DNA of 64,000 nt from a virus: positions 1 to 64,000 of IMG/VR virus record IMGVR_UViG_3300032220_001630; one strand, written 5' to 3'. This document shows positions 7,046 through 49,009 of the stretch, one piece after another (the stretch's first letter is position 1; each line of letters opens with the position of its first letter). Position numbers and translations under genes: made by a program. Below the pieces are notes generated by a model, which searched no databases, was not told the origin of the DNA, and was given only the letters and a program-made list of their open reading frames with translations.

Positions 7046-8158
7046 ATGAAAAGGAAAATCTTACCTTGGATAATAGCACTTTCAGCTTTATCGGTATCTG
7101 CATCTGCTGCATTTTATTCTGTATCTGGTCTTGGAAAAATGTTTGCTGGTGCATCTTTACAAGTTATGATTCTAGCAGGTAGTCTAGAATTTGCTAAATT
7201 AGTTACTGCTTCATTACTTTATGAATATTGGAGCAAATTAAACAGAGCTTTAAAGTATTACCTTCTAATAGCGACATTTATTCTTATCGCTATCACATCT
7301 GCTGGTATTTATGGGTTCTTATCTTCAGCTTATCAAGAAACCGCTTTTAAAGTGGAAAACCAGGACAAAAATGTGGGTATGCTAGATAAGAGGATATTAA
7401 TTATCCAGTCTGAGCTATCTAGCTACGAAAAACAGGTGGAACAAAAAAATAACAGATTAACTCAGATAACCAATATTAGGTCAAATCTACAAGGAACACA
7501 GGATCAATTAATAGCTCAATCTAAATCAACCTCCGCAGTAAGACAACAAATAAAAGAAATTGATTCGGAAATAAAAAGAATTGATTCGGAAGTATCAGTA
7601 CTAAATGATTCTATTTCTTCTAAAAATGTACAGATAACAGATCTGGAGACGAAAAAGATAGATGCTTCATCTGATGAGGAACTTGCAAAAGAGGTTGGTC
7701 CTCTTAAATACATAGCAAGCTTAACCGGTAAGAGCTTAGCAGAAGTCGTAAACTGGTATATTATAGTCTTAATGCTCGTTTTTGATCCATTAGCAATAGC
7801 TTTGGTTCTAGCTGCTAACTTTGCTTTCAGTAAGAGTAAAGAGGAGGATAAGGATCAAGAAGAGACGAAAACAAAGGAAGAAGAGACACAAGAAGAATAC
7901 ACTGAATTAGAAATTGAAGAGACCAAAGAAGAAAATCCTATTGATATAAAGTTTAGAGATGATATATCAGATCCTTTATTAGATATTAAGGAGATAGCTA
8001 AAAAGGAGGAGGAAAATATACAAGAGGAGCCCCAGAATTTAGATCAGCCAAGTGATAAATACAGTAATGGAGAATTTGGTGGATATAAAGCGAAAGGAAT
8101 GCCTCCTGTAGATTATATGCCTCCTCAAAATTCAACAAATCCTTTAAGTTTAAGATGA
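7046..8158 (+). CDS. Membrane protein with periplasmic coiled coil and acidic tail
   Basis: The 370-residue protein has three hydrophobic segments near the N-terminus (about residues 5-28, 32-52 and 68-93). A long coiled coil follows (about 105-215, rich in QIKEIDSEIKRIDSE-type heptads). A further hydrophobic segment (about 235-265, VVNWYIIVLMLVFDPLAIALVLA) precedes a disordered Glu/Lys-rich tail ending in Pro-rich sequence. The arrangement resembles membrane-anchored coiled-coil proteins of marine T4-like phages whose role is unsettled. The gene is the first of a late unit and its stop overlaps the next start by ATGA. A lysis, envelope-remodelling or superinfection role is possible, but nothing decides it. 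Confidence 0.65.
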   Translation: MKRKILPWIIALSALSVSASAAFYSVSGLGKMFAGASLQVMILAGSLEFAKLVTASLLYEYWSKLNRALKYYLLIATFILIAITSAGIYGFLSSAYQETAFKVENQDKNVGMLDKRILIIQSELSSYEKQVEQKNNRLTQITNIRSNLQGTQDQLIAQSKSTSAVRQQIKEIDSEIKRIDSEVSVLNDSISSKNVQITDLETKKIDASSDEELAKEVGPLKYIASLTGKSLAEVVNWYIIVLMLVFDPLAIALVLAANFAFSKSKEEDKDQEETKTKEEETQEEYTELEIEETKEENPIDIKFRDDISDPLLDIKEIAKKEEENIQEEPQNLDQPSDKYSNGEFGGYKAKGMPPVDYMPPQNSTNPLSLR

Positions 8159-8736
8159 TAAAACCAGTATATACAACCGATACTCAATACATAAAATACC
8201 TAGACTGTAATCCTGGTGTTTACAGAAGAGTTGTTTTTCAATCATGTAATCTTGATATCAAAGAGGGATCTAATATCCTATCAAGTACATCTCTTTGTAA
8301 TTTTAAGTTAGAATCACTAGGAAATTCAGAACTTGGTGGATGCGGAGGAAATCTCAAGAAAAACATAACTCTTGCAGCTGGAGCAAATTATATACTAACT
8401 GCACCAGAAATAGGACAAGCGCAGGGAGAAGTACAGATGATTGTTGTTAAGGTTAAGTATAAAAAGGAACAGGCCGTAGAAGATAGGTATTTAACATGGG
8501 AATATAAAGGAAACGTATATCCTCTTTATTCTTTGATGTTTTTATCAGGAAGAACTGAACCTGATATTCCTTGGCAAGGATGGGATCTAAGTTATTATTC
8601 AAATAATCCCCCTTCACCCTCTTTTTCGCCAGCTTTATATCCTCCAGTAACATCACCAGACAATACTTTCGGAGGTATTATGTTTACTAATCCCGGAATT
8701 TATGAGGTAGATCTGGAAATATTAATTTTTAACTAA
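8155..8736 (+). CDS. Putative virion protein, paralogue of next gene
   Basis: The 193-residue beta-rich protein aligns by eye with the following gene. Matching blocks are VFQSCNLDI against IFQRCNLQV, a shared SLCxxxL/I segment, RYLTWEYKGNVYPLYSL against RFINIIYNGAYLPMSNL, a conserved GWDL, and GGIMFTNP against GGMILYNP. Four cysteines lie in the first 65 residues. No signal peptide or membrane segment is present. The start is coupled by an ATGA overlap to the membrane protein upstream, and the stop overlaps the next ATG. Beta-rich, Pro/Ser-rich composition in a late unit suggests a decoration, fibre or tail component, by inference only. Confidence 0.6.
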   Translation: MIKPVYTTDTQYIKYLDCNPGVYRRVVFQSCNLDIKEGSNILSSTSLCNFKLESLGNSELGGCGGNLKKNITLAAGANYILTAPEIGQAQGEVQMIVVKVKYKKEQAVEDRYLTWEYKGNVYPLYSLMFLSGRTEPDIPWQGWDLSYYSNNPPSPSFSPALYPPVTSPDNTFGGIMFTNPGIYEVDLEILIFN

Positions 8737-9233
8737 TGGCAACAGCTCCACAAGTATGTAACACGATAGAATTTGAGGGTGTAATCTTTCAGAGATGTAA
8801 CTTACAAGTAGTTCAAGGAACAACAGTTCTTAGAGAATTATCTCTTTGTGATACTGATATTATCATAAATAATTTTTCAACTTTCAGTGGTTGTGTTTAT
8901 GGAAATTCGTCTCTACTACTTAATTCTGAAGGATTAGGAGAGCTTTCTTTTATAATGATAAAGGCCAGTTACCCGTCAACCTTACCGGTTGCTAGTAGAT
9001 TTATAAACATAATCTATAACGGCGCATATCTGCCGATGAGTAATCTTACAATTTTAACAGGAAATCCTAGCGATACTTCACCATCTATTCCTAATAGAGG
9101 ATGGGATTTAGATCCTAATGGAAGCGATATAGAATCACCATATTTCTCTAGCGGAGGAATGATATTATACAACCCACATTCAGTAAGAGTAAACGTGGAA
9201 GTTGTACTTGCAGGTGAATTTTTAACTTCTTAA
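8736..9233 (+). CDS. Putative virion protein, paralogue of previous gene
   Basis: The 165-residue product is a shorter copy of the preceding protein with the same order of blocks, including the CNL motif, a repeated SLC segment, the LPMSNLTILTGNPSD loop, GWDLDPNGSD and a C-terminal GGMILYNPHSVRVNVEVVL strand pair. The pair looks like an old tandem duplication: architecture is kept but most positions differ. Late, beta-rich and probably part of the particle; the exact role is unknown. Confidence 0.6.
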   Translation: MATAPQVCNTIEFEGVIFQRCNLQVVQGTTVLRELSLCDTDIIINNFSTFSGCVYGNSSLLLNSEGLGELSFIMIKASYPSTLPVASRFINIIYNGAYLPMSNLTILTGNPSDTSPSIPNRGWDLDPNGSDIESPYFSSGGMILYNPHSVRVNVEVVLAGEFLTS

Positions 9234-9357: not shown

Positions 9358-11679
9358 ATGGAAAAAAATAATAGTCCGGAGATCAACAGATTAAACATGG
9401 AGACTTCCAAAAATCTTGCAGAATCTTTAAAAGAATGGGCAGGATTAGATTCTCCAAAATCACAAGTTGCTTCTTCTTTCCTTAATGGATCGACCGCTCA
9501 GATGATAAAAGAATCTAACAGTAATGAATTTTCACCTAAGCCTTTAAATAATACAATATTTAGCTTTGGTCTTATTAATACTGTTTCTGCACTAAAAAAT
9601 TCAAGTCTTAATGAATTACCAGCAGGAAAGATTATGTTGGAAAGATACGAGGGTCTTCTTCTACAGAAAGGAATCTCAGAAGCTTTCCTTATTGAAGGAT
9701 TTTTAAATGACCTTAAATCTTTCTCATGGGAATCATCAGTAACTTCTGTTCTGGAAAACGTAAATTCTATCTTCGAAAATAGAAGAAGAGAGGTAGAGGT
9801 AGTAAAAGCATATGAGACTATCAAAGTAGCACCAGGGAAAGAATTATTCTCTGATGCAACTGCACAAATGAAAGATTGGTTAGTTTCTGAGAAAAAATCC
9901 TCAGATTCACTTATCCATGGTTTAAAAAGATTTGGCTTTAATCCACTTGTTAGAAATCTAGTTAGTTTCCTCTCTATATACGAAAATAAAAATCCAAACA
10001 AATTTAATCTCGGTGTAGATAATAACGTTTGCGAAGTTTCTAATGTATATTCACCAATAATGGTTACAGAGAGCGGATCTATTTTCTTCGCTGGAGGTAA
10101 ATTCCTAAAGATTAACGAGTCTGACAATTCTATATCTGAATGCTCTATGGATGAAGTACCAGTAGATTTTCAAAATAAAGCTGGTATAATTACTGACAGA
10201 GACGTTAAGATAGATGGAAATAGAATCTCATTAAATATCGGAAATAGTAAGGTAGAGATTGTATTCGAGAACGAAGAAAAGCAAATCTATTTCGACGGTA
10301 AAAGAATCAATGAATCTGATTTACCTGCTGCAGTTAGTGTTACTACTAATAGTCTTTTAGAAAATTCAAACTATAAAGCTTCTAAAGCAGCATTTATCGC
10401 TAAAAGTGCTGATGACATCGTAGATATAGATTTCGGTAAAAAGATAAAATCTAAACTGTACGAAGGAGTAGAAGCTAACATTTTCAAATTTGCAAATAAG
10501 ATATACGTTCAAACTGTTAATCCTTCTATGAGATTAAACAAAATTTATGAGGCTAATGCTACTCAAGCTATTAGCATTATAAAGGACTTTATCAAATATG
10601 ACATCTCTGAATCTTTAACTGAATTCTTACAGGGAGAGCAAGCTTTCCTAAGTGTAATGAAAAATGATAAAGCTGAGATTGTTAAGAATATCCAAATTTT
10701 AGAAAGCGAAATTGCTAAAATTGATAGAGTAAAAACAGAAAATCCTTTGATTGCAAAATCTAAAGAACTAATCAGCTTACAAGAATCATTAGAAGGAGAA
10801 TTAGAAAATCTTAAGGATAAATGGAACCAAATAAATATCGAGATCGATAGATTTGAAAAATCAGCAAATCCAATTTCGGTTAATGAAGAAATGGGTTATC
10901 CTATAGATACTGACGTTAGAATAAAAAGAAACGGTGCTAAAGGTAAAATCGTAGGTGTTGATGGAAGTTCAAAAACATATACAATTTTATTTAAGGAAGG
11001 AAAAACTGGAGAATATTTTTTCTCTGATGTTGAAGATCTAGCAGACGAAGTTGATAATTACGACATACAAACTCCCGATTTAGATCTTGAGTTTAGTGAC
11101 GATGCTAATGAATCATTAGATCAAAATTTTTCAACTGCACCTGGTCCAAAAGGAGCTACTCACTATAACAACGTTTTTATGAATATGGTGAAAAAGCACA
11201 TGGCAGCTGCTCCTGATAAGGATGCTAAAGGAAGTGCTAAATTTATAGACGACCAGAAAAATTCTAATATGGCTAGTGTTAAAGGAGAAGGTAAAAAATC
11301 TCCAGCTACTAAAAACGCTAAAGTTAAAGGTCAAAATTTAGTTGAAGCTCCAGGAAAAAGTGCAGGAAAGGGTAAGAATTTTATAGAAGATCTAAAAGAT
11401 TCTAATCTTTCAAAAGCACCATCATCTGTTATTAAAAGTGCTTCTAAATTCATCGAGGATCTTAAGGATCACAACTTAGCTCTAAAAGAAAACCAAAAGA
11501 ATTCTCATATCGAAAAAGCTCCTAAAGCAAAAGTTGCTAAGCCTAAGAAATTCATTGAGAGAGAAGAACATGCTAACTTAGAGGAAGCTCCTGGAGATCA
11601 CAAGAAAAACGGTAAAGAGTTTGTAGAAGATCAAAAGAGAGCAAATTTATCTTCTGCTCCGAAGACAAAAAAAAAGTAA
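9358..11679 (+). CDS. Large late protein with C-terminal FIED-NL-AP repeats
   Basis: The 773-residue protein has a long helical and beta-mixed body (residues 1-510). A small beta segment resembling a KOW/SH3-type fold follows at about 520-565 (VRIKRNGAKGKIVGVDGSS...). A low-complexity tail from about 600 onward is built of imperfect units of the form KFIEDxKxxNLxxAP separated by Lys/Ala/Gly-rich spacers; four units are clear and three more are partial. The tail is strongly basic and acidic in alternation and probably unstructured. Two late promoter boxes precede it, so it is likely abundant in the particle or its assembly. The stop codon is embedded in a slippery A AAA AAG site, and an 82-codon frame continues in the -1 frame. 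Function unknown. Confidence 0.7.
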   Translation: MEKNNSPEINRLNMETSKNLAESLKEWAGLDSPKSQVASSFLNGSTAQMIKESNSNEFSPKPLNNTIFSFGLINTVSALKNSSLNELPAGKIMLERYEGLLLQKGISEAFLIEGFLNDLKSFSWESSVTSVLENVNSIFENRRREVEVVKAYETIKVAPGKELFSDATAQMKDWLVSEKKSSDSLIHGLKRFGFNPLVRNLVSFLSIYENKNPNKFNLGVDNNVCEVSNVYSPIMVTESGSIFFAGGKFLKINESDNSISECSMDEVPVDFQNKAGIITDRDVKIDGNRISLNIGNSKVEIVFENEEKQIYFDGKRINESDLPAAVSVTTNSLLENSNYKASKAAFIAKSADDIVDIDFGKKIKSKLYEGVEANIFKFANKIYVQTVNPSMRLNKIYEANATQAISIIKDFIKYDISESLTEFLQGEQAFLSVMKNDKAEIVKNIQILESEIAKIDRVKTENPLIAKSKELISLQESLEGELENLKDKWNQINIEIDRFEKSANPISVNEEMGYPIDTDVRIKRNGAKGKIVGVDGSSKTYTILFKEGKTGEYFFSDVEDLADEVDNYDIQTPDLDLEFSDDANESLDQNFSTAPGPKGATHYNNVFMNMVKKHMAAAPDKDAKGSAKFIDDQKNSNMASVKGEGKKSPATKNAKVKGQNLVEAPGKSAGKGKNFIEDLKDSNLSKAPSSVIKSASKFIEDLKDHNLALKENQKNSHIEKAPKAKVAKPKKFIEREEHANLEEAPGDHKKNGKEFVEDQKRANLSSAPKTKKK
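11239..11662 (+). repeat. Degenerate coding repeats (KFIEDxKxxNLxxAP units)
   Basis: The clearest units read KFIDDQKNSNM, NFIEDLKDSNLSKAP, KFIEDLKDHNL, KFIEREEHANLEEAP and EFVEDQKRANLSSAP. DNA identity between units is low, so these are old protein-level repeats and not a recent expansion. Confidence 0.75.
11670..11676 (+). promoter_or_regulatory. Candidate -1 frameshift site A AAA AAG
   Basis: In the zero frame the codons read ACA AAA AAA AAG TAA, so the heptamer A AAA AAG ends right before the stop. This is the slippery sequence used by dnaX. A run of nine A residues also allows polymerase slippage. An 11-bp stem-loop begins 16 bases downstream. Confidence 0.6.
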
Positions 11680-11924
11680 AAACCAATAAATTAACTGAGT
11701 CTGAGACCTCTCCTGAAGAAGGAATAGGTAACAGACTCAGTTTTATTTTAGACGATTTAAAAGATTGTCTAGGAAAATTGAAAGAATTGGAAACTTCCAG
11801 TCTAGAAAACGGTAGAATTGGAATAGACGTAATTAAGGACTCTAAGGAAAATTTGGAAAAATTAAGGATTAATTTAGAAAATCAAATAAAAAAGTTCCAA
11901 AATAATTTCCCCGACCAGTCATGA
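11676..11924 (+). CDS. Probable -1 frameshift extension, helical C-terminal domain
   Basis: The -1 frame is open from 11616 to the stop at 11922-11924 and lacks any ATG or GTG. From the slip point it encodes 82 residues with strong coiled-coil character (SFILDDLKDCLGKLKELE, then NLEKLRINLENQIKKFQ). Its stop overlaps the ATG of the gp55-like gene as ATGA, the pattern expected of a real upstream reading frame. Unless a rare start codon or the TTG at 11778 is used, it can be reached only by frameshifting or polymerase slippage at the A-run, giving a fusion of about 857 residues. The encoded domain could oligomerise a minor form of the repeat-tailed protein. Confidence 0.6.
   Translation, partial: VKTNKLTESETSPEEGIGNRLSFILDDLKDCLGKLKELETSSLENGRIGIDVIKDSKENLEKLRINLENQIKKFQNNFPDQS
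11693..11742 (+). promoter_or_regulatory. 11-bp stem-loop, frameshift stimulator or terminator
   Basis: AACTGAGTCTG (11693-11703) pairs perfectly with CAGACTCAGTT (11732-11742), with a 28-base loop. It lies 16 bases after the slippery heptamer and is followed by TTTATTTTA. Location fits a frameshift stimulator; the T-rich tail also allows a terminator reading, or both. Confidence 0.6.
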
Positions 11925-12277
11925 TCTACGTAAAAAATAAAGAGCTAAAAAGAGCTTTACTCGAAAGCAAAGAAAAAGGAGAGCTAACTAGCGAAACCGT
12001 AAAAATGTTTACTTTAATAGTAAACGGTATGTCCAAGACACATTCCTATAGAGATACAGAAGACAGAGAAGATTGCATATCTTCAGGATTAGAAGATCTA
12101 GTTAAATACTGGAACAGATACGATCCAGAAAAATCTGATAATCCCTTTGCATTTATATCCCAAATAGCACACAATGGAATGAAAAAAGGATGGAAGAAAA
12201 TTCATCCACCAAAATCAATTAAAACAATCCCTTTTTCTAGAATAGTAAGAGAAGAGAATTCAAACTATAATGTTTAA
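11921..12277 (+). CDS. gp55: Late transcription sigma factor, gp55-like
   Basis: The 118-residue protein begins IYVKNKELKRALLESKEKG, close in pattern to the T4 gp55 start (YVNNKELLQAI). It continues through MSKTHSYRDTEDREDCISSGLED and YWNRYDPEKSDNPFAFISQIAHNG, matching the gp55 region 2-like core that binds polymerase and recognises the late TATA-type box. T4 gp55 is 185 residues and ends in a sliding-clamp binding peptide (SLDFLYE). That C-terminal part is absent here, the protein ending IPFSRIVREENSNYNV. Its start is coupled to the frameshift extension upstream. It is the natural reader of the GATATATA boxes described in this annotation. Confidence 0.8.
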   Translation: MIYVKNKELKRALLESKEKGELTSETVKMFTLIVNGMSKTHSYRDTEDREDCISSGLEDLVKYWNRYDPEKSDNPFAFISQIAHNGMKKGWKKIHPPKSIKTIPFSRIVREENSNYNV

Positions 12278-12279
12278 TC

Positions 12280-12768
12280 GTGGATATAAAAAAACTCAAG
12301 CCTTCTGATAGATTTAAGTCGGGAAAGTACTTCCCTACCAATCCAGAGAAGTATGTGGGTGATATACACAATATAATTTATAGGAGTTCATGGGAAAGAA
12401 AGTTTTGTCAATATTGTGACATTAATCCAAATATAACTAAATGGAGCTCTGAACCTTGTGCTATTCCCTATTGGAGTCCAATCGATAAAAAGGAGCACAA
12501 ATATTACGTTGATTATTACATCCAGGTTAAAAAAGCAAACGACGTATTAGAAAATTGGTTTATTGAAATAAAACCTGAAAATCAATACGACCTTAAAAAA
12601 AGACCAAAAGAACCAACCGGTAATTTAACAGAAAAGAAGATAAGGTCTTACAACGAAAAATTAAAAACCTGGATAACAAATAGAGCTAAATTCGAAGCTG
12701 CAACAAGATTTGCAGAAGCTAGGGGATATAAATTTGGAGCTATAAACGAAAGCTTCATAATGAGATGA
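12280..12768 (+). CDS. gp4: Head completion nuclease, gp4-like
   Basis: The 162-residue product has the conserved opening of T4 gp4-type proteins: FPTNPEKYVGD, NIIYRSSWERKFCQYCD, WSSEPCAIPYWSPIDKKEH and YYVDYYI, followed by an EIKP motif. The late (V)DYY...(E)IKP pair fits the PD-(D/E)XK nuclease core (Asp then Glu-x-Lys). T4 gp4 is about 150 residues and acts with gp50 in finishing the packaged head before tail joining. The start is GTG two bases after the gp55-like stop, with no ATG nearby. Its last bases overlap the next ATG. Confidence 0.85.
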   Translation: MDIKKLKPSDRFKSGKYFPTNPEKYVGDIHNIIYRSSWERKFCQYCDINPNITKWSSEPCAIPYWSPIDKKEHKYYVDYYIQVKKANDVLENWFIEIKPENQYDLKKRPKEPTGNLTEKKIRSYNEKLKTWITNRAKFEAATRFAEARGYKFGAINESFIMR

Positions 12769-13355
12769 AACCCTTTAATCAATTATTCGAAGACTACAAA
12801 CTACAAGTTTCTGGACTAACCTCTTTATCAGAGGAGTCATTTATGTTTTGGTTTAAAAATTACGTTAACCAAAAATCTGAATTTAACCCAAAAGACTTCT
12901 TAACTGGAAGAGTTTATTCTTTCGAGTATAATGACAAGATTGAAAAGAATAAAAAGTTCATAAATAAAAGACCAGTAGTATTTTTTACTGGCTTTCATAG
13001 TAAGGGAGATCAAAATTATTTTAACGGAGTAGATCTTATACTAATGCCTCCAATGATAAGAATACCTTTATTTACTAGAATACAGAGCGTTTATTCATCA
13101 CAAATAGAAAATATCATAAAGATGGATAAGCAAGGAGAAAAAAGCCAAATACAATTAAAAACAGACTATGAGGTATTGAATACAATTTTCAAAGGTATTC
13201 CATTTAAAAATGCTTATAGGTTTTGGGATCTTAAAAAAATAAGGGATGTCAAAGAAATTCCTTATGAAGAATGGACTAGAATAGTATATCTACATACGAG
13301 GTCAATTGAAGGGACCCCGATAGAAGAGATATATAATAAAAATATGCAGGTTTAA
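12765..13355 (+). CDS. Conserved-type phage protein of unknown function, between gp4 and portal
   Basis: The 196-residue product contains LTGRVYSFEYNDKIEKNKKF, a RPVVFFTGF strand and GVDLILMPPMIRIPLFTRI. This follows the pattern of an uncharacterised family in marine T4-like phages (a short linear segment, a strand, then GxNLxxLPPxxR). The N-terminus (MKPFNQLFEDYKLQVSG) resembles weakly the short targeting-like motif seen on several other proteins here. It overlaps both neighbours by one to four bases. A head-completion or end-protection role would fit its position, but the sequence does not resemble T4 gp2 or gp53. Confidence 0.6.
   Translation: MKPFNQLFEDYKLQVSGLTSLSEESFMFWFKNYVNQKSEFNPKDFLTGRVYSFEYNDKIEKNKKFINKRPVVFFTGFHSKGDQNYFNGVDLILMPPMIRIPLFTRIQSVYSSQIENIIKMDKQGEKSQIQLKTDYEVLNTIFKGIPFKNAYRFWDLKKIRDVKEIPYEEWTRIVYLHTRSIEGTPIEEIYNKNMQV
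13328..13335 (+). promoter_or_regulatory. Late promoter box GATATATA inside preceding gene
   Basis: The box is in the last codons of the upstream gene and ends 19 bases before the portal ATG, at the usual late spacing. Confidence 0.5.
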
Positions 13356-14944
13356 TGGCTGGATTTACAGATGGAAATAAAACTTTTTTTAGCTCGATAA
13401 TAGACAGCGTTAGGAAAGTTGGTAGCTTCGGGATGGCCTATGGTGATCTAGTAGTAAAAAATTCACAAGCTGTCGGTGTAACAGAAGCACAATTCTTAAA
13501 GAAAGGAGGAATAAAAGATGAGGCTTTTCTTTTTGGATTAAAAAGGTCAGATACAACTACTAAGCAATACATAGCTTATTTTGATAAGGACTTCAAAAAT
13601 AAAAGACACTATGTACAGGGATTTGCACAAAATCCAGAGATAGAGTTTATATTGGATACAGTATGTGATGAAGCAATAGTCTATGACGAGAAAAATTTCT
13701 GGGCATACTTCTCTTTCATGCAGCATGATGATGTGGATGATGACGTTGCAAAAAAAGTTCAAAAAAGATATAAAGAGATTTACAATCTCTTTGGATTTAA
13801 CCAAGACATCTTAGCTTGGCACTTATTTAGAAAATTCTTAATCGAAGGTATAATATCATTCGAAATCATATTTGACAAGAAAGGGAAAAATATCATAGGA
13901 TTTAAAGAAATAGATGCGGCTTCTTTAGTACCTACAGTTGAACAGCAGCCTGATGGATCATACGTAGATATCTGGATACAGTATCCCGATAATCCATCAC
14001 TAACAAGAAAACTTTACGATTCACAATTAATCTATATAAGTTATGCTAAAGGTGGAGGAACTTCTGCAAGAATAAGCTATATTGAAAGATTGATAAGATC
14101 TTTTAACCTCTTGAGGATAATGGAGCACACTAGAATCATCTGGAACGTGATGAATTCTTCTTTCCGTATGGCAATGACAGTTCCAATCGGTACTAAATCC
14201 CCACAAAAAGCAAAGCAAACATTAGGCGAACTTATGTCTATTTATAAAGAGGACATAAGGTTAAATACAGACAGTGGAGAATTAACAGTTGATGGGAGAC
14301 CAAAAATACAATTCTTTAAGAACTATTTAATGCCTTCATCACCAAACGGAACTCCAGATATACAGCCTTTAGCTGGCGGAGGTGATGCTAGTGCATTTTC
14401 AGATACAAAAGCTTTACAATATTTCGCTAATAAACTTAGAATAGATTCAAAAGTCCCTGCAACAAGATTTGGTAGAGACGACTCTGGATCTGAAGGTACC
14501 ATTACATTCTCTGCAGATGGATTAGATCAGGAAGAAATAAGATTTGGTAAATTTATAAACAGACTTAGATCTATTTACCAGGAGATATTAATGAAACCAC
14601 TATGGGTTCAATTCTGCTTAGATTTTCCACAGCTAAAAAATGATTATATAATTAAGTCAGAATTTGGACTAGATTATGTTAAAGAAAATATGTTCCTGGA
14701 AGCTAAGGAAATGGAGGTCATGACTGCAAGAAAGGATCAGGTTATAAAAATTCTAGGTCTTAAAGATTCAGAAGGTAAATCATACTTCAGTTTAAAATTT
14801 GCTCTCGATAGATGGTTAGGAATGACCCCTCAGGATATGTTGGATAACGAAAAAGCTAAGAAAGAAGCAGCAGAGAAAAAGAAGGAAGAGGGCAAAGAGG
14901 AAAAACCTGAAGGTGAAGGTTCTGGAGAAGAATTTAAAATATAA
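13355..14944 (+). CDS. gp20: Portal vertex protein, gp20-like, copy 1
   Basis: The 529-residue protein matches the size of T4 gp20 (524) and its landmarks: IAYFDKDF, EIEFILDTVCDEAIVYDE, ISFEIIFDKKGKNIIGFKEID, an ISYIERLIRSFNLLRIMEHTRIIWNVMNSS core helix, PIGTKSPQKAKQTLGELMSIYKED, and the C-terminal LMKPLWVQFCLDFPQLKND stem/crown segment. The last 30 residues are Lys/Glu-rich. Portal dodecamers sit at one capsid vertex, nucleate the prohead and form the DNA channel and motor docking site. Three bases after its stop begins a second, clearly homologous portal gene. Confidence 0.9.
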   Translation: MAGFTDGNKTFFSSIIDSVRKVGSFGMAYGDLVVKNSQAVGVTEAQFLKKGGIKDEAFLFGLKRSDTTTKQYIAYFDKDFKNKRHYVQGFAQNPEIEFILDTVCDEAIVYDEKNFWAYFSFMQHDDVDDDVAKKVQKRYKEIYNLFGFNQDILAWHLFRKFLIEGIISFEIIFDKKGKNIIGFKEIDAASLVPTVEQQPDGSYVDIWIQYPDNPSLTRKLYDSQLIYISYAKGGGTSARISYIERLIRSFNLLRIMEHTRIIWNVMNSSFRMAMTVPIGTKSPQKAKQTLGELMSIYKEDIRLNTDSGELTVDGRPKIQFFKNYLMPSSPNGTPDIQPLAGGGDASAFSDTKALQYFANKLRIDSKVPATRFGRDDSGSEGTITFSADGLDQEEIRFGKFINRLRSIYQEILMKPLWVQFCLDFPQLKNDYIIKSEFGLDYVKENMFLEAKEMEVMTARKDQVIKILGLKDSEGKSYFSLKFALDRWLGMTPQDMLDNEKAKKEAAEKKKEEGKEEKPEGEGSGEEFKI

Positions 14945-14947
14945 AAA

Positions 14948-16621
14948 ATGGCAGGATTCGTAGACAATTTACAAAAATTAAATCCCAATTTATCAAGAAT
15001 AATAAAGTCAATTAGCGGGCTTGGATCTTTTGGTATGGAGTACAAAGACATGGTCATTGAAGATTCCATGGCAATAGGTATTTCTGAAGCTAACCTAAGA
15101 GAAAGATTTGGCTACGGAGCAGACGACGAGGACTTTATTTACAGCATAGCTGCACAGGATTCTTCAAATAGAAAATATATTGCATATTTTGATAAGGATT
15201 ATCCAGTAAGAAGGGATTTTTTAAGAACGTTTGCACTTAATGCAGAGATAGAATACGTTTTAGATACTTTATGTGACGAAGGAATAGTTTATGACGAGAA
15301 AAATTTCTTTTGTCATCCCGCAACTATGAACATGGATCTTAAAGACGATGTTATGAAATCTTTAAGAGGTAACTTTAGAAAGCTTTATGTCCTTCACAAC
15401 TTCACAAACGGATTAACTGCTTGGCAATACTTTAGACAGCTTTTAGTTGATGGATTTTTAGCATTTGAAATAATTTATTCTAGTGACGGCAAAAATATAG
15501 TAGGATTCAAGGAATTAGATGCTACTAGTCTTACTCCTGCAGTAGAAAGAAAAGCTGACGGATCTAGAGAATCCCTTTGGTGGCAATATTACGGAGATAC
15601 AACTAGACAAAGAAAACTTTTAGATGCTCAAGTAATCTATATCTCCTATGCTAAAGCTAATACTGCAGCTAGAACTTCTTATTGTGAAAGATTAGTTAGA
15701 TCTTATAACCTTCTTAAAATAATGGAGCATTCCAGAATAATATGGAATGTAATGAATTCACAGTACAGAATAAAAATGACTGTACCAATTGGAAGTAAAT
15801 CTCCGCAAAAGGCTAAAGAAACTTTAGGCGAACTTATGTCCGTATACAAAGAGGATATAAAACTTGATACTTCATCAGGAGAACTTGCAATTAACGGAAG
15901 ACCAGATTTACAATTCTATAAAAACTATCTTTTCCCACAAAGCGGCGGTGAATCAACTAAAGTTGAGACTATAAACGCTCAAGGACCAAATCTGAATATT
16001 ATGGATTCGGTAGTTTATTTCTATAATAAATTAAGACAGGATTCTAAAATACCATATAATAGATTTTCTGCAAGATGGGGTTCAGGTAGTGCTGCAGCTT
16101 ATAAAATTCCAGCAGACGGATCAGAAAGAGACGAAGTTAGATTTGCAAAATTTATAACACGTCTAAGATCTATTTTCCAAGAAATAGTAGTAAAGCCTCT
16201 ATGGATACAAATGTGTTTAGATTTTCCACATTTAAAAAATGATTCTGAATTTAGAAGCCAAATTGGGGTTAAATTTGAGAGCGATAATACTTTTGGAGAA
16301 TCAAGAGAGATAGAGCAGCTTTTAAAACATATAGACTTCATAAATTCCTTAGGTGAAATAAAAGAAACAGTTAATGACGAAGAAGTTCAATTCTTCAATC
16401 AAGACTTCCTTATAGAAAGATGGTCAGGATTGCCATATGAAGATATAATGGCAAATAAAAAATATAAGGAAAAAGAAAAAGGTGAAGCTGCACCAGCAGA
16501 AGCTCCTGCTTCTGAAGAGACCCCAGCTGAAGAGACACCTGCTGAAACACCAGCAGAAGAAACACCAGCTGAGACCCCTGCTGAGACATCAGAGGAGGGA
16601 GGAGAAGAAACTACAACCTAA
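14948..16621 (+). CDS. gp20: Portal vertex protein, gp20-like, copy 2
   Basis: The 557-residue protein is a full-length paralogue of the preceding portal. Shared blocks run throughout, including GSFGMEYKDMVIEDSMAIGIS, IAYFDKDYPVRRDFLR, EIEYVLDTLCDEGIVYDEKNF, YCERLVRSYNLLKIMEHSRI, PIGSKSPQKAKETLGELMS and KPLWIQMCLDFPHLKND. No core segment is missing and no frame is broken, so both copies look functional. Differences concentrate in the region after DLQFYKNYLFPQ and in the C-terminus, where this copy has a Pro/Ala/Glu/Thr-rich tail of about 45 residues. The two could form a mixed ring, serve different vertices, or one could have a new function. Confidence 0.88.
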   Translation: MAGFVDNLQKLNPNLSRIIKSISGLGSFGMEYKDMVIEDSMAIGISEANLRERFGYGADDEDFIYSIAAQDSSNRKYIAYFDKDYPVRRDFLRTFALNAEIEYVLDTLCDEGIVYDEKNFFCHPATMNMDLKDDVMKSLRGNFRKLYVLHNFTNGLTAWQYFRQLLVDGFLAFEIIYSSDGKNIVGFKELDATSLTPAVERKADGSRESLWWQYYGDTTRQRKLLDAQVIYISYAKANTAARTSYCERLVRSYNLLKIMEHSRIIWNVMNSQYRIKMTVPIGSKSPQKAKETLGELMSVYKEDIKLDTSSGELAINGRPDLQFYKNYLFPQSGGESTKVETINAQGPNLNIMDSVVYFYNKLRQDSKIPYNRFSARWGSGSAAAYKIPADGSERDEVRFAKFITRLRSIFQEIVVKPLWIQMCLDFPHLKNDSEFRSQIGVKFESDNTFGESREIEQLLKHIDFINSLGEIKETVNDEEVQFFNQDFLIERWSGLPYEDIMANKKYKEKEKGEAAPAEAPASEETPAEETPAETPAEETPAETPAETSEEGGEETTT

Positions 16622-16716: not shown

Positions 16717-18039
16717 ATGAAAAAAGAATTAGAGGTACTCCTAAAAATAGAATCTTCCACTGGAGAGGGGTCACAGAAAACAAAACAAGATCTCATTAAG
16801 CAAAACAGCAACGAGATACTTAATTATCTTTTAAAAGTAGCACTTAACCCCTTTTTAACAACTAAACTTCATAAACTTGAGGTTATAGAGAATTCTCCAT
16901 ATCTCGTGGATTATGACGTATTTGAAAAATTTCAGGATCTTACTGCTAGATTATTTAGTGCACCTGCAGCAAATGATAAATTTAGAGAAGAAGCTTTTGA
17001 GATAGTAAATTGTATAGATCTCCCGTTTGAGCACCGAAAGATGTTAGGAAAGATCCTAACAAAAAGACTGAATATTGGTATAGGAGCCAAATTGATCAAT
17101 AAAGCTTTTCCTGTTGAACTTATTCCAGATCCAAGCTTAATGCTAGCTCAAGATGATGAGGACGAAATAAAAAAATGGTCTAATATCATTTGTGAGGAAA
17201 AATATGACGGGGTAAGAATAGCTGCCTTCATATCTGGAAAGGAGGTTAAGTTCTTTACAAGGGCCTTTAATGAAATCCCTTCACATTATCTAGAAAAAAT
17301 AGCTAATGAGTGTCTTCTATTAATAGAAGCATCTGGATTAAAAGGAGAATGGTTCTTCGACGGGGAACTAACGGATCTAAATAGAAAAACAGTATCAGGT
17401 AAGGTCACACAAATGCTAAAGGGAAAACCGATGGATTCTATCGGGGACGATTTCATATTTAATGTTTTCGATCTCGAAGATGCTGAAACACTTAAAACAG
17501 GAAAAGGTGTTATACCATTCGATATGAGAAGATCTTCGCTAGAGGCCGTTTTTAAGACAAATAAGACATCTTCTGTCACACTTGCAGATTCTTTCTTAAC
17601 TAAAGAAAAAGAAGACGTATACGCTTACTATAAGAAAATAGTAGATGCTGGCGGAGAGGGAGTCATTTTAAAAAATCCTGACCATGTTTACGAGTGTAAA
17701 AGATCCAAAAATTGGATAAAACTAAAAGAGGTAAACGAATGCGATTTGGTTATCAAAGGGTGGTATCCAGGAGAAGGTAAAAGAGAAGGATTCATTGGGG
17801 GATTTATTTGTGAGGACCTTTCTGGAACTATCAAAGTAAATATAGGATCTGGTTTTACAGATGCAGATCTGAAAGAGCTAAGTCAAGATCCAGACTCGCA
17901 CATCGGAAAGGTATGTGCAGTACAATACAATGTTATAATCAGCGACAAAAATGGGAATTGGTCTTTATTTCTTCCTAGGTTCGTAGATATAAGACACGAT
18001 AAAACAAGTCCAGACAATTTAAAAGAAAAGTGTAAATGA
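16717..18039 (+). CDS. ATP-dependent DNA ligase
   Basis: The 440-residue enzyme shows the nucleotidyltransferase motifs of ATP-dependent ligases in order. Motif I is EEKYDGVR with the adenylated Lys162; then FFDGEL, the FNVFDLE strand, GGEGVILKNPDHVYECKRSKNWIKLK (motifs IV and V), and an OB-fold C-terminal domain with GSGFTDADLKEL. The N-terminal 150 residues correspond to the DNA-binding region of T4 gene 30 ligase (487 residues). It seals nicks during phage replication and repair. Its stop overlaps the clamp loader start as ATGA, placing it in a replication operon that begins after a host-type promoter box. Confidence 0.92.
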   Translation: MKKELEVLLKIESSTGEGSQKTKQDLIKQNSNEILNYLLKVALNPFLTTKLHKLEVIENSPYLVDYDVFEKFQDLTARLFSAPAANDKFREEAFEIVNCIDLPFEHRKMLGKILTKRLNIGIGAKLINKAFPVELIPDPSLMLAQDDEDEIKKWSNIICEEKYDGVRIAAFISGKEVKFFTRAFNEIPSHYLEKIANECLLLIEASGLKGEWFFDGELTDLNRKTVSGKVTQMLKGKPMDSIGDDFIFNVFDLEDAETLKTGKGVIPFDMRRSSLEAVFKTNKTSSVTLADSFLTKEKEDVYAYYKKIVDAGGEGVILKNPDHVYECKRSKNWIKLKEVNECDLVIKGWYPGEGKREGFIGGFICEDLSGTIKVNIGSGFTDADLKELSQDPDSHIGKVCAVQYNVIISDKNGNWSLFLPRFVDIRHDKTSPDNLKEKCK

Positions 18040-21074: not shown

Positions 21075-21092
21075 GATGATAGTTCATGTCCG

Positions 21093-21100
21093 GATATATA
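21093..21100 (+). promoter_or_regulatory. Late promoter box GATATATA inside start of fibre gene
   Basis: The box lies after the first possible ATG (21086) and ends 18 bases before the in-frame ATG at 21119, so the late transcript would use the second start. Confidence 0.5.
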
Positions 21101-21118
21101 AAGCAAAATACCTCTGGA

Positions 21119-24649
<3,531 letters not shown>

Positions 24650-34155: not shown

Positions 34156-35943
34156 ATGCAACTCTTAAATCAAAACGAGATCTACGAAACATGGTCTCCT
34201 ATCATTGAGAGCAAGACCGGCATGACTGATCGTTCAAAAGTAGAATGGCTTTCTAAATATTGCCACTTCCACTCACTTAACGAATCTGCTGGAGCTTATA
34301 ACTCTCTTTCAGTAATCCCAGGTATGGGTAACATCTTACCTCCAGGTAACTACTCAGGTGGTGCTGCTGGTGCTGGTAACGCAGGTTTTTACTACAACAA
34401 CACTTACAACGCTGGTACTCCATATGTTGGTTCTGGTGATAAGTTCCCTTCATTACTTCCATTGGCTATTCAGGTAGCTGCTAAAACCGTTGGTTTTGAC
34501 ATCGTTCCTGTTATTCCTATGGCTGGTCCTACAGGGGTACTTTCTTACCTTGACTATGTATATGCAGGTGGTACTTTAACTGGTACTTCAACAGATTCAG
34601 GTACAGGTTACATCGCTAATACACCTGATATGATCAAGGTTCCTATTGCGACTGCATCTCCAGTATACGGTACTTTAACTGTAGGTTCTAACTACGCTAT
34701 TTACGTAACTGGTGCAGCTCCTACTTCAGGTCTTGCTTCTGGTAACGCTGGTGCTATTGGTACTTACGTTGGTAACTCACGTATTGACGGTTTCCCAATC
34801 TTCAGAATTATCGGTATCACTACTGGTTCTTCAGTTGCTGCTGCAATCACTGCTAACTCTGAGATTAAAGCTGTTACTTTAACTTCTGCAGCTGGTGCAA
34901 TCCCTACATGGGCATCACTTGGTTCTTTAGTTGCTTACTCTGGTGGTGCTGCTGTATTAGTTAAAACGTTAGAAGATCACATCCAAGGTTTCTCTGGTGC
35001 TGGTCCAACTAACAACAACAACTGGCAAGGTCCTTACGTAGACGGTACTCAAAACTACGATCCAATGTTAAGAGGTACAGCCGAGTCAACTTACTTCAAG
35101 TCTCTTGGTTTATCTACTTTCACTAAGTTCGTAGAAGCTGGTACTTTCCAAGTTGCTGCTTCTGTTACTACTGAGCAAATCCAAGACCTTAACAAGCAAT
35201 TCGGTATCGACGTAGTTTCTATGATCGAGAACGCTCTTGTTAACGAGGTTTCTCAAGCTATTAACAAGCACATCTTATCAAGAGGTTTTGCTCTTGGTTG
35301 GTCAAACCACTCACAATTCTTCGTAACTGAAAGTACAAACCTTAACCTTAACTTAGTAATTGGCGGTCTTGCTGCAAGTTATGCAGTTCCTTCTTACGTA
35401 GGTAAGACTGGTTCTCCTGTAACTGGAGCACCAGGTTCAGTTGCTGGTCCTGCTTCAGGTACTTTCGAGAACTTATCAACAGTTCAAAGAAGACTTTACA
35501 GCCGTATCTTAGCTGCTGCTAACGTAGTTGCTAACAGAGGTCGTAGAGGTCCTGCTAACTTCATCGTTACTAACTCACAAATTGCTTCTGCTCTACAAGA
35601 CATTAGCCAATTTACATTCGCTCCATTTACTAACACTCTTACTCAAAACAACGGTACTTTATACCCAGTAGGTTCACTTGCAGGTATGACAGTATATGTT
35701 GACCAAAACATGTCATTCGGTGACACTAGAGTATTAGTTGGTAGAAAAGGTGCTGATGATGAGCCAGGTATGAAGTTCATGCCTTACATGATGGCTGAAT
35801 CAATTCAGACTATCTCTGAAGGTACTATGTCTCCTAAGATCGCGGTTAAGTCTCGTTACTCTTTAGTTGAGGCTGGTCACTTACCAGAGACTATGTATTT
35901 CACGTTCCACGTTAATACTGGTTCTGCTACTTCTATCATCTAA
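34156..35943 (+). CDS. gp23: Major capsid protein, gp23-like
   Basis: The 595-residue protein (T4 gp23 has 521) opens with IYETWSPIIESKTGMTDRSKVEWLSKYCHFHSLNE, the gp23 pattern, and a likely maturation site after SLNE (Glu43). It has the GPTGVLSYLDYVYAGG strand typical of the fold. The end contains FMPYMMAESIQTISEGTMSPKIAVKSRYSL, a hallmark of gp23 C-termini. The region 175-300 is Gly/Thr/Ala-rich and probably forms an inserted surface domain. Codon use is shifted toward a narrow set (GGT, GCT, AAC, ACT) compared with neighbours, as expected for the most highly expressed gene. No GATATATA box precedes it, so it is probably read through from the protease gene. Confidence 0.95.
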   Translation: MQLLNQNEIYETWSPIIESKTGMTDRSKVEWLSKYCHFHSLNESAGAYNSLSVIPGMGNILPPGNYSGGAAGAGNAGFYYNNTYNAGTPYVGSGDKFPSLLPLAIQVAAKTVGFDIVPVIPMAGPTGVLSYLDYVYAGGTLTGTSTDSGTGYIANTPDMIKVPIATASPVYGTLTVGSNYAIYVTGAAPTSGLASGNAGAIGTYVGNSRIDGFPIFRIIGITTGSSVAAAITANSEIKAVTLTSAAGAIPTWASLGSLVAYSGGAAVLVKTLEDHIQGFSGAGPTNNNNWQGPYVDGTQNYDPMLRGTAESTYFKSLGLSTFTKFVEAGTFQVAASVTTEQIQDLNKQFGIDVVSMIENALVNEVSQAINKHILSRGFALGWSNHSQFFVTESTNLNLNLVIGGLAASYAVPSYVGKTGSPVTGAPGSVAGPASGTFENLSTVQRRLYSRILAAANVVANRGRRGPANFIVTNSQIASALQDISQFTFAPFTNTLTQNNGTLYPVGSLAGMTVYVDQNMSFGDTRVLVGRKGADDEPGMKFMPYMMAESIQTISEGTMSPKIAVKSRYSLVEAGHLPETMYFTFHVNTGSATSII

Positions 35944-41086: not shown

Positions 41087-42502
41087 ATGTGTGGAATTTT
41101 AGTAGCTATTAACCCGACAAAGGAAAGGATAGAATCTATATCTCATAGAGGAATAGAACATTCTATTGTAAACGATCAAAATCTATATCTAGTTCATCAC
41201 AGGCTTCCAATACAAACAGTGGATGGTGATAGCTGGTCACAGCCTATACAAATTGGCGAAAATAGGTGGCTGTTATTTAATGGCGAGATTTTCAATTATA
41301 GTGGCGGATTCGATTCGGATACAGCATACCTTCAAAATCTATTTAGTAGTTTTAATTTTAGTGGTATTGACATGCTACAAGCTATATACGAACCCCATAT
41401 AGTTTCATGGGATGGGTTTTGGGCAATAGTTATGGTAGACACCAAAGAGAAAGAAATATATGCTTTTACTGATCCTTTGGGCAAAAAGGTTTTATACAAG
41501 AACGATCTTGGCGAAATCTGCTCAGAAATAAAAGGATTATTTGAAAAGGACAATGAACCCGCACCAGATCCATCATTCTTCAGTGGTGTTATAAAGTGGG
41601 GATATTTAACCACCGATCAGACACCTTATGAAGGCATAAAAAAACTACAACCTAATAGATTTTATAAATGGAATCTCTATAACCCATCAAAAATGGAAGT
41701 ATCTGATCCATATTATAATTTTTACTCTTTTGAGGCAGGATTAGAAACATATGAAGATAGAATGGATTGGTTATGGAATAAACTTGAAAATTCAGTAGAA
41801 TCAAGATTGATCTCTAAAAACTACCCGACATCTCTTCTGTTATCAGGGGGTTTAGATTCTGCCATTATTGCAGGTCTTCTTCTTAAACTCGGAGCAGATG
41901 TTCAGTTTTATTCTATATCCAACGGTGAAGATGAGCAATACGTAAAAGCATGTGAGGAATATTGGGGTGTTAAATCTATAAGATTAGATTACGATGTTGA
42001 CATAGAAAGCGAAGAGGGTAAGAATAAAACACTAGAAATATATCAGAAATGGAATGAATCACCCATAGATATGGGAAGTGTTCTACCTCAATATCATTTA
42101 TTTGATGCAATAAAAAAAGGATCTAAAACCAGGATAGTTATTTCAGGAGATGGAGCTGATGAATTATTTGGAGGATATAGGAGAATTAATGAATACGATT
42201 CACAAGATTCAGACATCTTTCACGAATTAACTTCATACCATCTACCAAGATTGGACAAGTTATCAATGGCACACACCTTGGAGCTTAGAAGTCCTTTTTT
42301 AAATCACGACATAGTAAGATTTGCTTTAACACTTCCTTTTGAAGAGAGAAAGAATAAAAAAATATTGAAGGATACTTTTAAAGGATTAGTTCCAGATTCA
42401 GTAATTGAAAGAAAAAAATTGCCTCTTAAAAATCAGATGATTGTAGAGGATCAAATTTCTTACAGAAAAAAGATAAAGGATTTATATCTTAAATCCATTT
42501 GA
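41087..42502 (+). CDS. asnB: Asparagine synthetase B-like, glutamine-hydrolysing
   Basis: The 471-residue enzyme begins MCGIL, giving Cys2 as the class II glutamine amidotransferase nucleophile. RGIEH, VHHRL and LLFNGEIFN follow in the glutaminase domain. The synthetase domain has the SGGLDSA pyrophosphatase loop and ISGDGADELFGGYRR. Bacterial AsnB is about 550 residues, so the C-terminal part is shorter, but all visible motifs are intact. It would make asparagine, or amidate another carboxylate, at the expense of glutamine and ATP. Its 3' end overlaps by 21 bases the end of a convergent minus-strand ATP-grasp gene. Confidence 0.9.
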   Translation: MCGILVAINPTKERIESISHRGIEHSIVNDQNLYLVHHRLPIQTVDGDSWSQPIQIGENRWLLFNGEIFNYSGGFDSDTAYLQNLFSSFNFSGIDMLQAIYEPHIVSWDGFWAIVMVDTKEKEIYAFTDPLGKKVLYKNDLGEICSEIKGLFEKDNEPAPDPSFFSGVIKWGYLTTDQTPYEGIKKLQPNRFYKWNLYNPSKMEVSDPYYNFYSFEAGLETYEDRMDWLWNKLENSVESRLISKNYPTSLLLSGGLDSAIIAGLLLKLGADVQFYSISNGEDEQYVKACEEYWGVKSIRLDYDVDIESEEGKNKTLEIYQKWNESPIDMGSVLPQYHLFDAIKKGSKTRIVISGDGADELFGGYRRINEYDSQDSDIFHELTSYHLPRLDKLSMAHTLELRSPFLNHDIVRFALTLPFEERKNKKILKDTFKGLVPDSVIERKKLPLKNQMIVEDQISYRKKIKDLYLKSI

Positions 42503-43963
42503 TAAAACTACCTCCACACCCGCAACAGGATCCCCTTTTGCGTCTTTTGGAGAATATCCGTCTGGTCTATCTGTTAATACGAAATCCTCTGAAGGATCTA
42601 CTATTAAACCTGCGGAGCTTAGAAAATCTCTATTTAATAAAAGAGGTGTGCTTTTTTCAGTTCTATCTACTAGTGAAAACTTTACTTTCTTGTAAAGAAT
42701 ACCATTGAATTCAACATCAAGATTAACAACCGCTCTGTGGTGGATTTTTTCACCAACCTCAGCTTTAGATTGTCCTACGATTTTATTTACAAATTGCTGA
42801 TTACCTAAAGTCCATACCACTTCTCCGTCTTTTTCTTCGATAGTATCTGCGTGTAACGAACAAGACGTAGCACCATTACCAGTATCTAATTTTCCTACAA
42901 ACGTACCAACTCCAGAGATAGATATCAATTCTCTAAATCCTGTTACTTTCTTAGGCTTAACCCAGTTTTTTCTATCAATTAAGAAATCTACTACAATATC
43001 TGTTACTGGTATACCGGTTGTTTTTTCTATCCCCGTAGTTCCAGGAGATGCGTTAACTTCTAATACGTATGGGTTTTCTGTTCCTTTATCAACAATTATA
43101 TCAACTCCACACCATAGACAACCTGTAGCTTTAGCAGATTCAATAGCTATTTTTTCTATCGATTCTGGTAGCTCTACTGTTTCAGTGTCACCACCGAGTG
43201 AGAAGTTAGTTCTAAAATCGCCTTTAATCTTAATTCTTTTCATCGCTGCGATGACTTTGTACTCTCTTCCAGACATACCATCAGATTCAGCAATTACGTG
43301 AATTCTTAAGTCATATTCAGCTTCGATTTTTTCTTGTAAAACTATCTCAGTTCCTGGTGCTAAATGCCATAAAGCTTGAAGAGTAGAAACTAATGATGGT
43401 CTCGAATCAATCATGAATACTCCTATACCTTTAGTTCCTGAAAGAAACTTACATACTACAGGGTATTTTCCACCAACATCTTCAACAGCCTTATCTATAT
43501 CTGCCTCAGAAGATATTAAAGATGTTTTAGGTACGGGGATATTATTTAATTGAAGCTTTCTTGTTGTTTGTAATTTATCCTCACATATGATAACAGAATC
43601 ATAAGAGTTAACACAAGGAAAACCTAAATCTTCCATTTTCTTAAAGAATCCCTTAGCAGCATTATTTTTTATGGAAGATCTTCTAGTTAGAACTATTGTA
43701 CGATCAAGATAAATTTCTTGCTGTTTATCTCCTCTACTAGATATAAGATATGTTCCTTTTGGTGTTTTTTGAATAGATCCTTTTTCTGTATCTACTATAA
43801 TACATTTTAAACCTTTCTCCTCACATATCTTCATTATTTTGTCAGTGGTTGGAGCATTCTTTAGGGTCTTACCTAATTTAGTGGTTAGCACAACTACTGT
43901 TAAGGGTCTTTCTTTTCCTTTTACCCCTTTGAATATAAATTTTTCTAGCAATGGATTATCCAT
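42482..43963 (-). CDS. RimK-like ATP-grasp ligase fused to retropepsin-like domain
   Basis: Residues 1-335 form a RimK-type ATP-grasp enzyme: VVCKFLSGTKGIGVF (ATP loop), YDLRIHVIAE, FRTNFSLGG, and GVDIIVDKGTENPYVLEVNASPGTTGIEKTTG with the Mg-binding Glu and Asn. From about 345 a second domain begins with GTFVGKLDTGNGATSCSLHA, the DTGxxxS motif of the ATP-dependent protease / retropepsin-like family (DUF785), and ends with LVDRTEKSTPLLLNRDFL. RimK adds glutamates to the C-terminus of ribosomal protein S6. Encoding ligase and peptidase together suggests writing and trimming of amino-acid tails on a host or phage protein. It has its own late-type promoter. Confidence 0.85.
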   Translation of the reverse strand: MDNPLLEKFIFKGVKGKERPLTVVVLTTKLGKTLKNAPTTDKIMKICEEKGLKCIIVDTEKGSIQKTPKGTYLISSRGDKQQEIYLDRTIVLTRRSSIKNNAAKGFFKKMEDLGFPCVNSYDSVIICEDKLQTTRKLQLNNIPVPKTSLISSEADIDKAVEDVGGKYPVVCKFLSGTKGIGVFMIDSRPSLVSTLQALWHLAPGTEIVLQEKIEAEYDLRIHVIAESDGMSGREYKVIAAMKRIKIKGDFRTNFSLGGDTETVELPESIEKIAIESAKATGCLWCGVDIIVDKGTENPYVLEVNASPGTTGIEKTTGIPVTDIVVDFLIDRKNWVKPKKVTGFRELISISGVGTFVGKLDTGNGATSCSLHADTIEEKDGEVVWTLGNQQFVNKIVGQSKAEVGEKIHHRAVVNLDVEFNGILYKKVKFSLVDRTEKSTPLLLNRDFLSSAGLIVDPSEDFVLTDRPDGYSPKDAKGDPVAGVEVVLSNGFKI

Positions 43964-48277: not shown

Positions 48278-49009
48278 ATGCAATTAACCTATGCAGTAGT
48301 CAGCTCTAATTCCAACCCTGAGTACTTGGATTTTTGGCCATATGTGGCAAAAATGTGGCAGAGGATAGGATTAGAGCCTGTCCTTTTTTATATAGATAAA
48401 GAAGCTCCTAAGGAAAATGCGGCAGAATATGGTAGAGTTATCTTTCTAGAATCTATACCCGAATGGGACATAGCCCAACAGGCACAGTGTATTAGATTTT
48501 GGGCTGCAAAGGTTTTAGACAATCCTTTTATTATCTCAGATATTGATATGCTTCCTATTTCAAAGGATTATTACATAAATGAAGCATTGAAAATAGGACA
48601 CAGAGGTATAATATCCTATAGTTCTGATATTATCAAATATAGATGGTATAGGACTAATCCTCAGTATCCTATGTGTTATCTTGCCGGAGATCCCTTATCA
48701 TTCACACAGCTTCTGGATATGAATGATACTGATCATAAAAGTTTTCTCAGAAGATTAATGAGAATGAATATCAGATTTGGTACTGATCAAAAATTCTTCT
48801 ATAACCAATCCCTTCGAAAGCCTGATATTAAAATTAAGCATTTGGAGAGAGGATGGATAGAAGAAAAATATGCGGTTAAAAGACTTGATAAAGCTATCTG
48901 GCCAAAATCTGATTATAATCCAGAGGAATATATAGACTGTCATTTACCTAGACCCTTATCATCAAATGCAGTCCTTTGTAAAAAATTATTTAGTAAGCTA
49001 GATTTATGA
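48278..49009 (+). CDS. Glycosyltransferase-like protein with DxD motif
   Basis: The 243-residue product starts TYAVVSSNSNPEYLDFWPYVAKMW and has QCIRFWAAKVLDNPFIISDIDMLP, where DID is the DxD-like metal site after a helix that places the substrate. A late PLSSNAVLCKKLFSKL closes the fold. The protein encoded at 59.1 kb follows the same plan (FKNFWPIVVKSWNKYF, then MIEDIDTIP). It overlaps the next gene by ATGA. Likely a sugar transferase of unknown specificity. Confidence 0.65.
   Translation: MQLTYAVVSSNSNPEYLDFWPYVAKMWQRIGLEPVLFYIDKEAPKENAAEYGRVIFLESIPEWDIAQQAQCIRFWAAKVLDNPFIISDIDMLPISKDYYINEALKIGHRGIISYSSDIIKYRWYRTNPQYPMCYLAGDPLSFTQLLDMNDTDHKSFLRRLMRMNIRFGTDQKFFYNQSLRKPDIKIKHLERGWIEEKYAVKRLDKAIWPKSDYNPEEYIDCHLPRPLSSNAVLCKKLFSKLDL

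Follow-up and report, generated by a model that had tools for sequence, protein, structure and literature searches.

Phage portals are treated as homododecamers, and their 12-fold symmetry is part of the standard account of how a five-fold head vertex meets a six-fold tail. To our knowledge, no heteromeric portal is known, and searches of open-access main texts found nothing relevant on two, tandem, duplicated or heteromeric phage portals. In T4, a single portal gene, gp20, gives rise to a homododecamer (PMC4493910), whereas the locus described here carries two diverged portal genes in tandem: it lies in a stretch of 64,000 nucleotides (positions 1 to 64,000 of the IMG/VR virus record IMGVR_UViG_3300032220_001630, which measures 103 kb in full), referred to below as the window, and we call the two genes and their products A and B. 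In the T4 ring the clip is where motor and neck dock and also carries an inter-subunit β-sheet, while the inner clip, the channel loop and the tunnel loop face the DNA (PMC4493910); arms of the neck protein gp13 insert between the clip helices of adjacent subunits (PMC12270204). The closest named relatives of A and B are the portals of Mahaphages and Lak phages (LR756500, 462 kb; LR756501, 735 kb; LR756502/LR756504; Prevotella Lak phages), with an identity of 42–45% to LR756500 and of about 31–37% to the others, among the matches listed. LR756500 also resembles the window in its upstream gene order. LR756500 and LR756501, both of which were checked, have one full portal each, and the Lak phage and other records show one portal place in the tblastn tables, among the matches listed.

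Two complete portal genes and their distribution

Taken singly, both proteins are typical T4-family portals; what is new is that they form a conserved, obligate pair. A and B are 48% identical over 507 aligned positions (BLASTP, expectation value (E) 6e-175). Both match the Pfam family PF07230 (Portal_T4) over 417 amino acids (aa) and profile positions 9–432 of 433, with 203.8 bits for A and 199.5 bits for B at a cut-off of 22.9, and both match the portal family PHROG 213 (193 bits for A). Like T4 gp20 (PF07230; PDB 3JA7, 6UZC, 9MKB, 9LU6/9LU7), with which they align at a profile E of about 2e-35 to 5e-35, they comprise wing, stem, clip and crown, and the clip helix region equivalent to T4 residues 284–308, at which motor and neck dock, is found in both and hardly differs between them. 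For B, a portal fold is further predicted by an AlphaFold2 (AF2) model (mean predicted local distance difference test score (pLDDT) 66.9, predicted template modeling score 0.57), whose best PDB matches are T4 gp20 chains (Foldseek, E 2e-19), followed by other phage portals. The original prediction, made from the sequence alone, had proposed two complete gp20-like genes, and the PF07230 matches bear this out; its coordinates, its lengths of 529 and 557 codons and its three-base gap are all exact (Table 1). The start codon of A sits on the stop codon of the preceding gp2-like gene with a one-base overlap (TAATG). In relatives the spacer between A and B varies from 2 to 23 bases and is often out of frame, which rules out a readthrough fusion of the two.

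The pair recurs throughout a clade of large, mostly aquatic giant phages. IMG/VR searches, each taking the best 80 loci, returned at least 295 loci in which A and B are both close to full length. Collapsed, these give 111 distinct A–B protein pairs and 120 different nucleotide sequences, not counting the window; the contigs are metagenomic, and all evidence presented here is sequence-based. No single-portal locus of the A/B clade was found among the sampled loci with 2 kb of sequence on either side; the clade is undersampled, and members with one portal may lie beyond these loci. Large contigs fetched via the major capsid protein (MCP) carry exactly two tandem portals wherever the portal place is covered, including contigs of 430, 348 and 343 kb; the remaining contigs fetched in this way have no portal, a match cut off at the contig end, or one weak short match. 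The survey of related phages that the original prediction had proposed thus finds both genes conserved. Relatives with a single portal comprise LR756500 with its kin in IMG/VR, the 636–735-kb Mahaphages, Sphingomonas phage PAU, and phages of Tenacibaculum and Chryseobacterium. In INPHARED, 1271 records match A and 2192 match B, with a second portal place only in two 735-kb records, among the matches listed, in agreement with the premise that T4-like phages normally have one portal. The extra portal matches in LR756501 are short fragments, the longest of them in a 342-aa open reading frame (ORF). Since no relative was confirmed among GTDB genomes, no host is assigned to the clade.

Two sets of side observations concern fragments and interruptions of portal genes. 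The Mahaphage records LR756500 and LR756501 contain short ORFs with rearranged portal or MCP pieces far from the head module, and an MCP-like ORF of 294 aa stands on contig G002 of the A/B clade; all of these could be debris or interference factors. ORFs with portal or MCP pieces lie at L241:10912-11481 (−), L241:2593-3534 (−), L242:3021-4049 (+), L243:2029-2550 (+) and L244:3527-4411 (−). Moreover, in a small number of contigs one portal copy is interrupted by an in-frame stop or a split frame (L008:2523-2525, in L008/L368; L180:4970-4972; L293:4629-6247; G027 132485-134065), through either sequencing error or real decay. Such interruptions would fit an assembly duplication or a pseudogene. 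However, the copies have diverged to 48% identity, occur in independent assemblies from many metagenomes and are conserved across the clade with a ratio of nonsynonymous to synonymous substitution rates (dN/dS) of about 0.02. An assembly duplication and an unconserved second copy are thereby ruled out, and we regard the probability of an artefact or a decaying duplicate as negligible.

The large freshwater phages that encode the ribosomal protein bS21 and infect Bacteroidetes are a further point of comparison: the abstract of the paper describing them (PMC9723584) uses the plural "portal vertex proteins", and passages of its main text do not describe two portal genes. Identity of the A/B clade with the bS21 lineage is unsupported, with ribosomal protein S21 in one of 11 records tested. 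Within the two-portal clade, S21 occurs as a 77-aa ORF on contig G005 (G005:C1:105196-105348, −).

Selection on both copies and the sites at which they differ

In a maximum-likelihood tree of 50 representative A–B pairs and outgroups, A (support 1.00), B (0.97) and A and B together (0.997) are each monophyletic, the last being sister to single-portal huge phages. Because A, B and their union each form clades, a single tandem duplication preceded the radiation of the clade, and it was never reversed in our sample. Both copies are under strong and nearly equal purifying selection (median dN/dS 0.020 for A and 0.022 for B, ratios that are approximate since many dS values exceed 1) and have diverged at nearly equal rates: the mean depth is 0.59 within A and 0.64 within B, their distance matrices correlate in a mirror-tree comparison with r 0.99 and a slope of 1.09, and each shares about 43% identity with the single-copy sister. 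Gene conversion or concerted evolution was considered and rejected. Within one phage the identity of A and B stays at 45–52%, and concerted changes of A and B at the same column (2 observed) show no excess over the 2.2 expected from simulation under LG+C20+G4 with shared site rates and profiles; consequently, there is no sign of homogenization.

The differences between A and B are concentrated in a few regions. With T4 domain limits (PMC4493910) transferred by alignment, and a diagnostic column defined as one in which A and B share practically no residue in the 111 pairs, 48 of 499 columns are diagnostic. More of them than expected lie in the inner clip plus channel loop (9 of 24 columns, odds ratio 6.7, p 1.5e-4) and in the tunnel loop (9 of 26 columns, with an odds ratio of 5.9 and p 3e-4), whereas stem helix 5, with 24 columns, and the outer clip, with 58 (p 0.003), have none; nine regions were compared, and the p values are uncorrected for this. 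Pooled, this amounts to 18 of 50 columns in the channel-side and tunnel loops and none of 82 in stem helix 5 and outer clip. The mean identity of A and B within a phage follows the same pattern: stem helix 5 reaches 82% and the clip 62%, as against 33% for the tunnel loop and 24% for both the channel loop and the crown; this is in line with the earlier observation that the copies differ mainly after the FYKNYL motif and in their tails. Crown and N-terminus also differ consistently, and the tunnel loop has a mean net charge over the representatives of +2.6 in B and −0.8 in A. If the two genes merely supplied more of one interchangeable portal, their adjacency and similarity would be accounted for, whereas 48 columns with disjoint residues that cluster in functional loops, and an identity that holds at 45–52% without homogenization, would not; we therefore consider a pure dosage effect very improbable.

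Another explanation is a division of labor in which one copy is the virion portal and the other acts alongside it as an initiator of head assembly, a stacked second ring or a plug, retaining the fold and not the channel role. The consistent differences in crown, N-terminus and DNA-facing loops would fit such a role. A non-portal function would, however, be expected to free the surface that docks motor and neck, yet neither copy evolves faster or loses its outer clip or stem, two parts that A and B share almost unchanged. Moreover, single-copy portals have 80 conserved residues, of which A keeps 58 and B 60 (about 73–75%), and no sign was found in these alignments that either protein has been released from portal constraints. 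For this reason the reading of one copy as a fixed cap or second pore, which the original prediction had listed beside a mixed ring and two kinds of portal, is disfavored, and we judge a division of labor of this type unlikely.

A proposed mixed portal ring

The mixed ring, by contrast, is the one of these three ideas that the analysis favors, on the grounds of clade-wide conservation, near-equal rates, near-identical docking surfaces and a single MCP: no second full MCP was found in the records checked, and the clade contigs show one main match to the large terminase subunit (TerL), so that there is no sign of a second type of head. Because stem and outer clip are the same in both proteins, their genes are adjacent and a single MCP accompanies them, A and B are most simply understood as parts of one ring, and with stems and outer clips so similar, two proteins made from neighboring genes would be hard pressed to avoid co-assembly. 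Since the DNA-facing loops are specialized, such a ring would offer the DNA two kinds of loop. On balance, we lean toward a single portal ring in which A and B are obligately mixed and the DNA meets two types of loop. The ancestor of the large Lak/Mahaphage-related clade duplicated its gp20-type portal gene once and in tandem, after which, in this scenario, both copies became indispensable. Translated side by side, A and B would co-assemble into a mixed dodecamer, for example an alternating hexamer of A–B dimers, in which motor and neck would meet the same outer clip on every subunit, and the gripping, gating or sealing of the DNA would be shared out between the two types of channel and tunnel loop. 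The symmetry of such a ring would be lower than the usual 12-fold one; its stoichiometry and the order of its subunits are matters of conjecture.

The alternative in which A and B build separate homomeric portals, all-A and all-B, for different particles or conditions (head fill, DNA end chemistry or infection stage) draws on two observations: both copies retain every portal domain and most of the residues conserved in single-copy portals, and their DNA-contacting loops differ. But with genes only 2–23 bases apart differential expression would be harder to achieve, the likeness of stem and outer clip leaves no obvious insulation against mixing, neither copy has been lost in the sample or freed from constraint, and the records contain neither a second full MCP nor more than one main TerL match. 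We accordingly give two homomeric portals a small chance.

Two near-invariant residues of single-copy portals may also bear on a mixed ring. The equivalent of T4 D163 is kept in A and replaced by Ser in B, and that of R398 is kept in B and replaced by Gln or Lys in A. A passage in PMC7414715, citing Finnigan 2012, describes how the paralogs Vma3 and Vma11 made the c-ring of the V-ATPase an obligate heteromer after duplication via complementary losses. The reciprocal losses at D163 and R398 would parallel these if the two residues form a contact; the c-ring is an analogue and not a homologue of the portal, and the co-assembly of A and B is something that we infer. With somewhat less than even confidence, the pair may be taken further as the first heteromeric portal, composed of two obligate paralogs that likely alternate in six-fold symmetry and whose near-neutral to slightly acidic (A) and basic (B) loops would act as a two-part DNA clamp.

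Several points weigh against a mixed ring, the first being that co-assembly is deduced from the sequences. An AF2 prediction of an A–B fusion from a paired alignment gave no usable view of an interface (mean pLDDT 39), and the same-column concerted changes described above do not exceed the simulation. The rates of A and B covary with rho 0.65, the top value of 21 pairs in a comparison with mostly non-head neighbors; with MCP, protease and gp4 as yardstick, however, A–B (0.57) lies beside A–MCP (0.58) and protease–gp4 (0.73). Because covariation of this strength is ordinary among head proteins, we dropped it and do not count it as evidence for co-assembly.

Genomic setting and significance

The pair stands in a head-module setting, with gp55-, gp4- and gp2-like genes directly upstream of A, DNA ligase and clamp-loader-like genes downstream of the pair, and protease and MCP about 16–18 kb downstream (Table 1).

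Table 1. Portal genes, their compared regions and head-module neighbors in the window.
Feature	Position	Strand	Basis or remark
Late sigma factor (gp55-like), conserved upstream neighbor	11921..12277	+	PHROG 234
Head closure/completion protein (gp4-like), conserved neighbor	12280..12768	+	PHROG 218
DNA end protector (gp2-like), directly upstream of A	12765..13355	+	PHROG 429
Portal protein A, gp20-type, 529 aa	13355..14944	+	PF07230 203.8 bits; PHROG 213 193 bits
A outer clip, residues 268–325	14156..14329	+	Motor/neck docking by T4 homology; 0/58 diagnostic columns, 111 pairs
A inner clip and channel loop, residues 326–351	14330..14407	+	DNA-facing in T4; 9/24 diagnostic
A tunnel loop, residues 366–393	14450..14533	+	9/26 diagnostic; mean net charge −0.8
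A–B spacer, 3 bases	14945..14947	+	In relatives 2–23 bases long, frequently not in frame
Portal protein B, gp20-type, 557 aa	14948..16621	+	PF07230 199.5 bits; AF2 model with T4 gp20 as top Foldseek match
B outer clip, residues 271–328	15758..15931	+	Same basis as A outer clip
B inner clip and channel loop, residues 329–352	15932..16003	+	Counterpart of that in A, same column test
B tunnel loop, residues 367–395	16046..16132	+	Mean net charge +2.6
ATP-dependent DNA ligase, usual downstream neighbor of the pair	16717..18039	+	PHROG 114
Prohead protease, 686 aa	32083..34143	+	PHROG 207
Major capsid protein, sole full MCP found in the record	34156..35943	+	PHROG 28442 and 138

A genome-wide habit of tandem duplication can be ruled out as the origin of this arrangement: the portal genes are by far the strongest paralog pair of the 103-kb record, with 532 bits as compared with 80 bits for the runner-up. 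Weaker tandem paralog pairs in the window are 8155-8736 with 8736-9233 (51 bits) and 49006-49647 with 49644-50459 (80 bits). Just upstream of the head genes, and conserved alongside the portal pair, lies the gene of a 773-aa protein (9358-11679) that has no confident family match and whose C-terminal third repeats a KFIEDLKxxNLxxAP-like motif several times. Elsewhere in the window are a probable fiber protein of 1187 aa, with long stretches of collagen-like G-x-T/G-P-T-G (21086-24649), and a RimK-like ATP-grasp protein with a C-terminal domain resembling ATP-dependent zinc proteases (42482-43963, −). In record G000, an ORF of about 230 aa with a weak terminase-ATPase-like match (G000:C1:95709-96233, −) is the only terminase-family match, and the main TerL gene probably lies beyond the end of the fragment.

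A widespread clade with two obligate portal paralogs constitutes a natural experiment on which parts of a portal tolerate asymmetry and on the function of the tunnel and channel loops, and it could show whether very large phage heads use a more elaborate DNA gate. The pair is also a possible source of two-component protein nanopores. If A and B do share one ring, the clade would provide a viral case of a homomeric ring that became an obligate heteromer after duplication, and the symmetry of an alternating ring would match that of the six-fold tail instead of the usual 12-fold portal.

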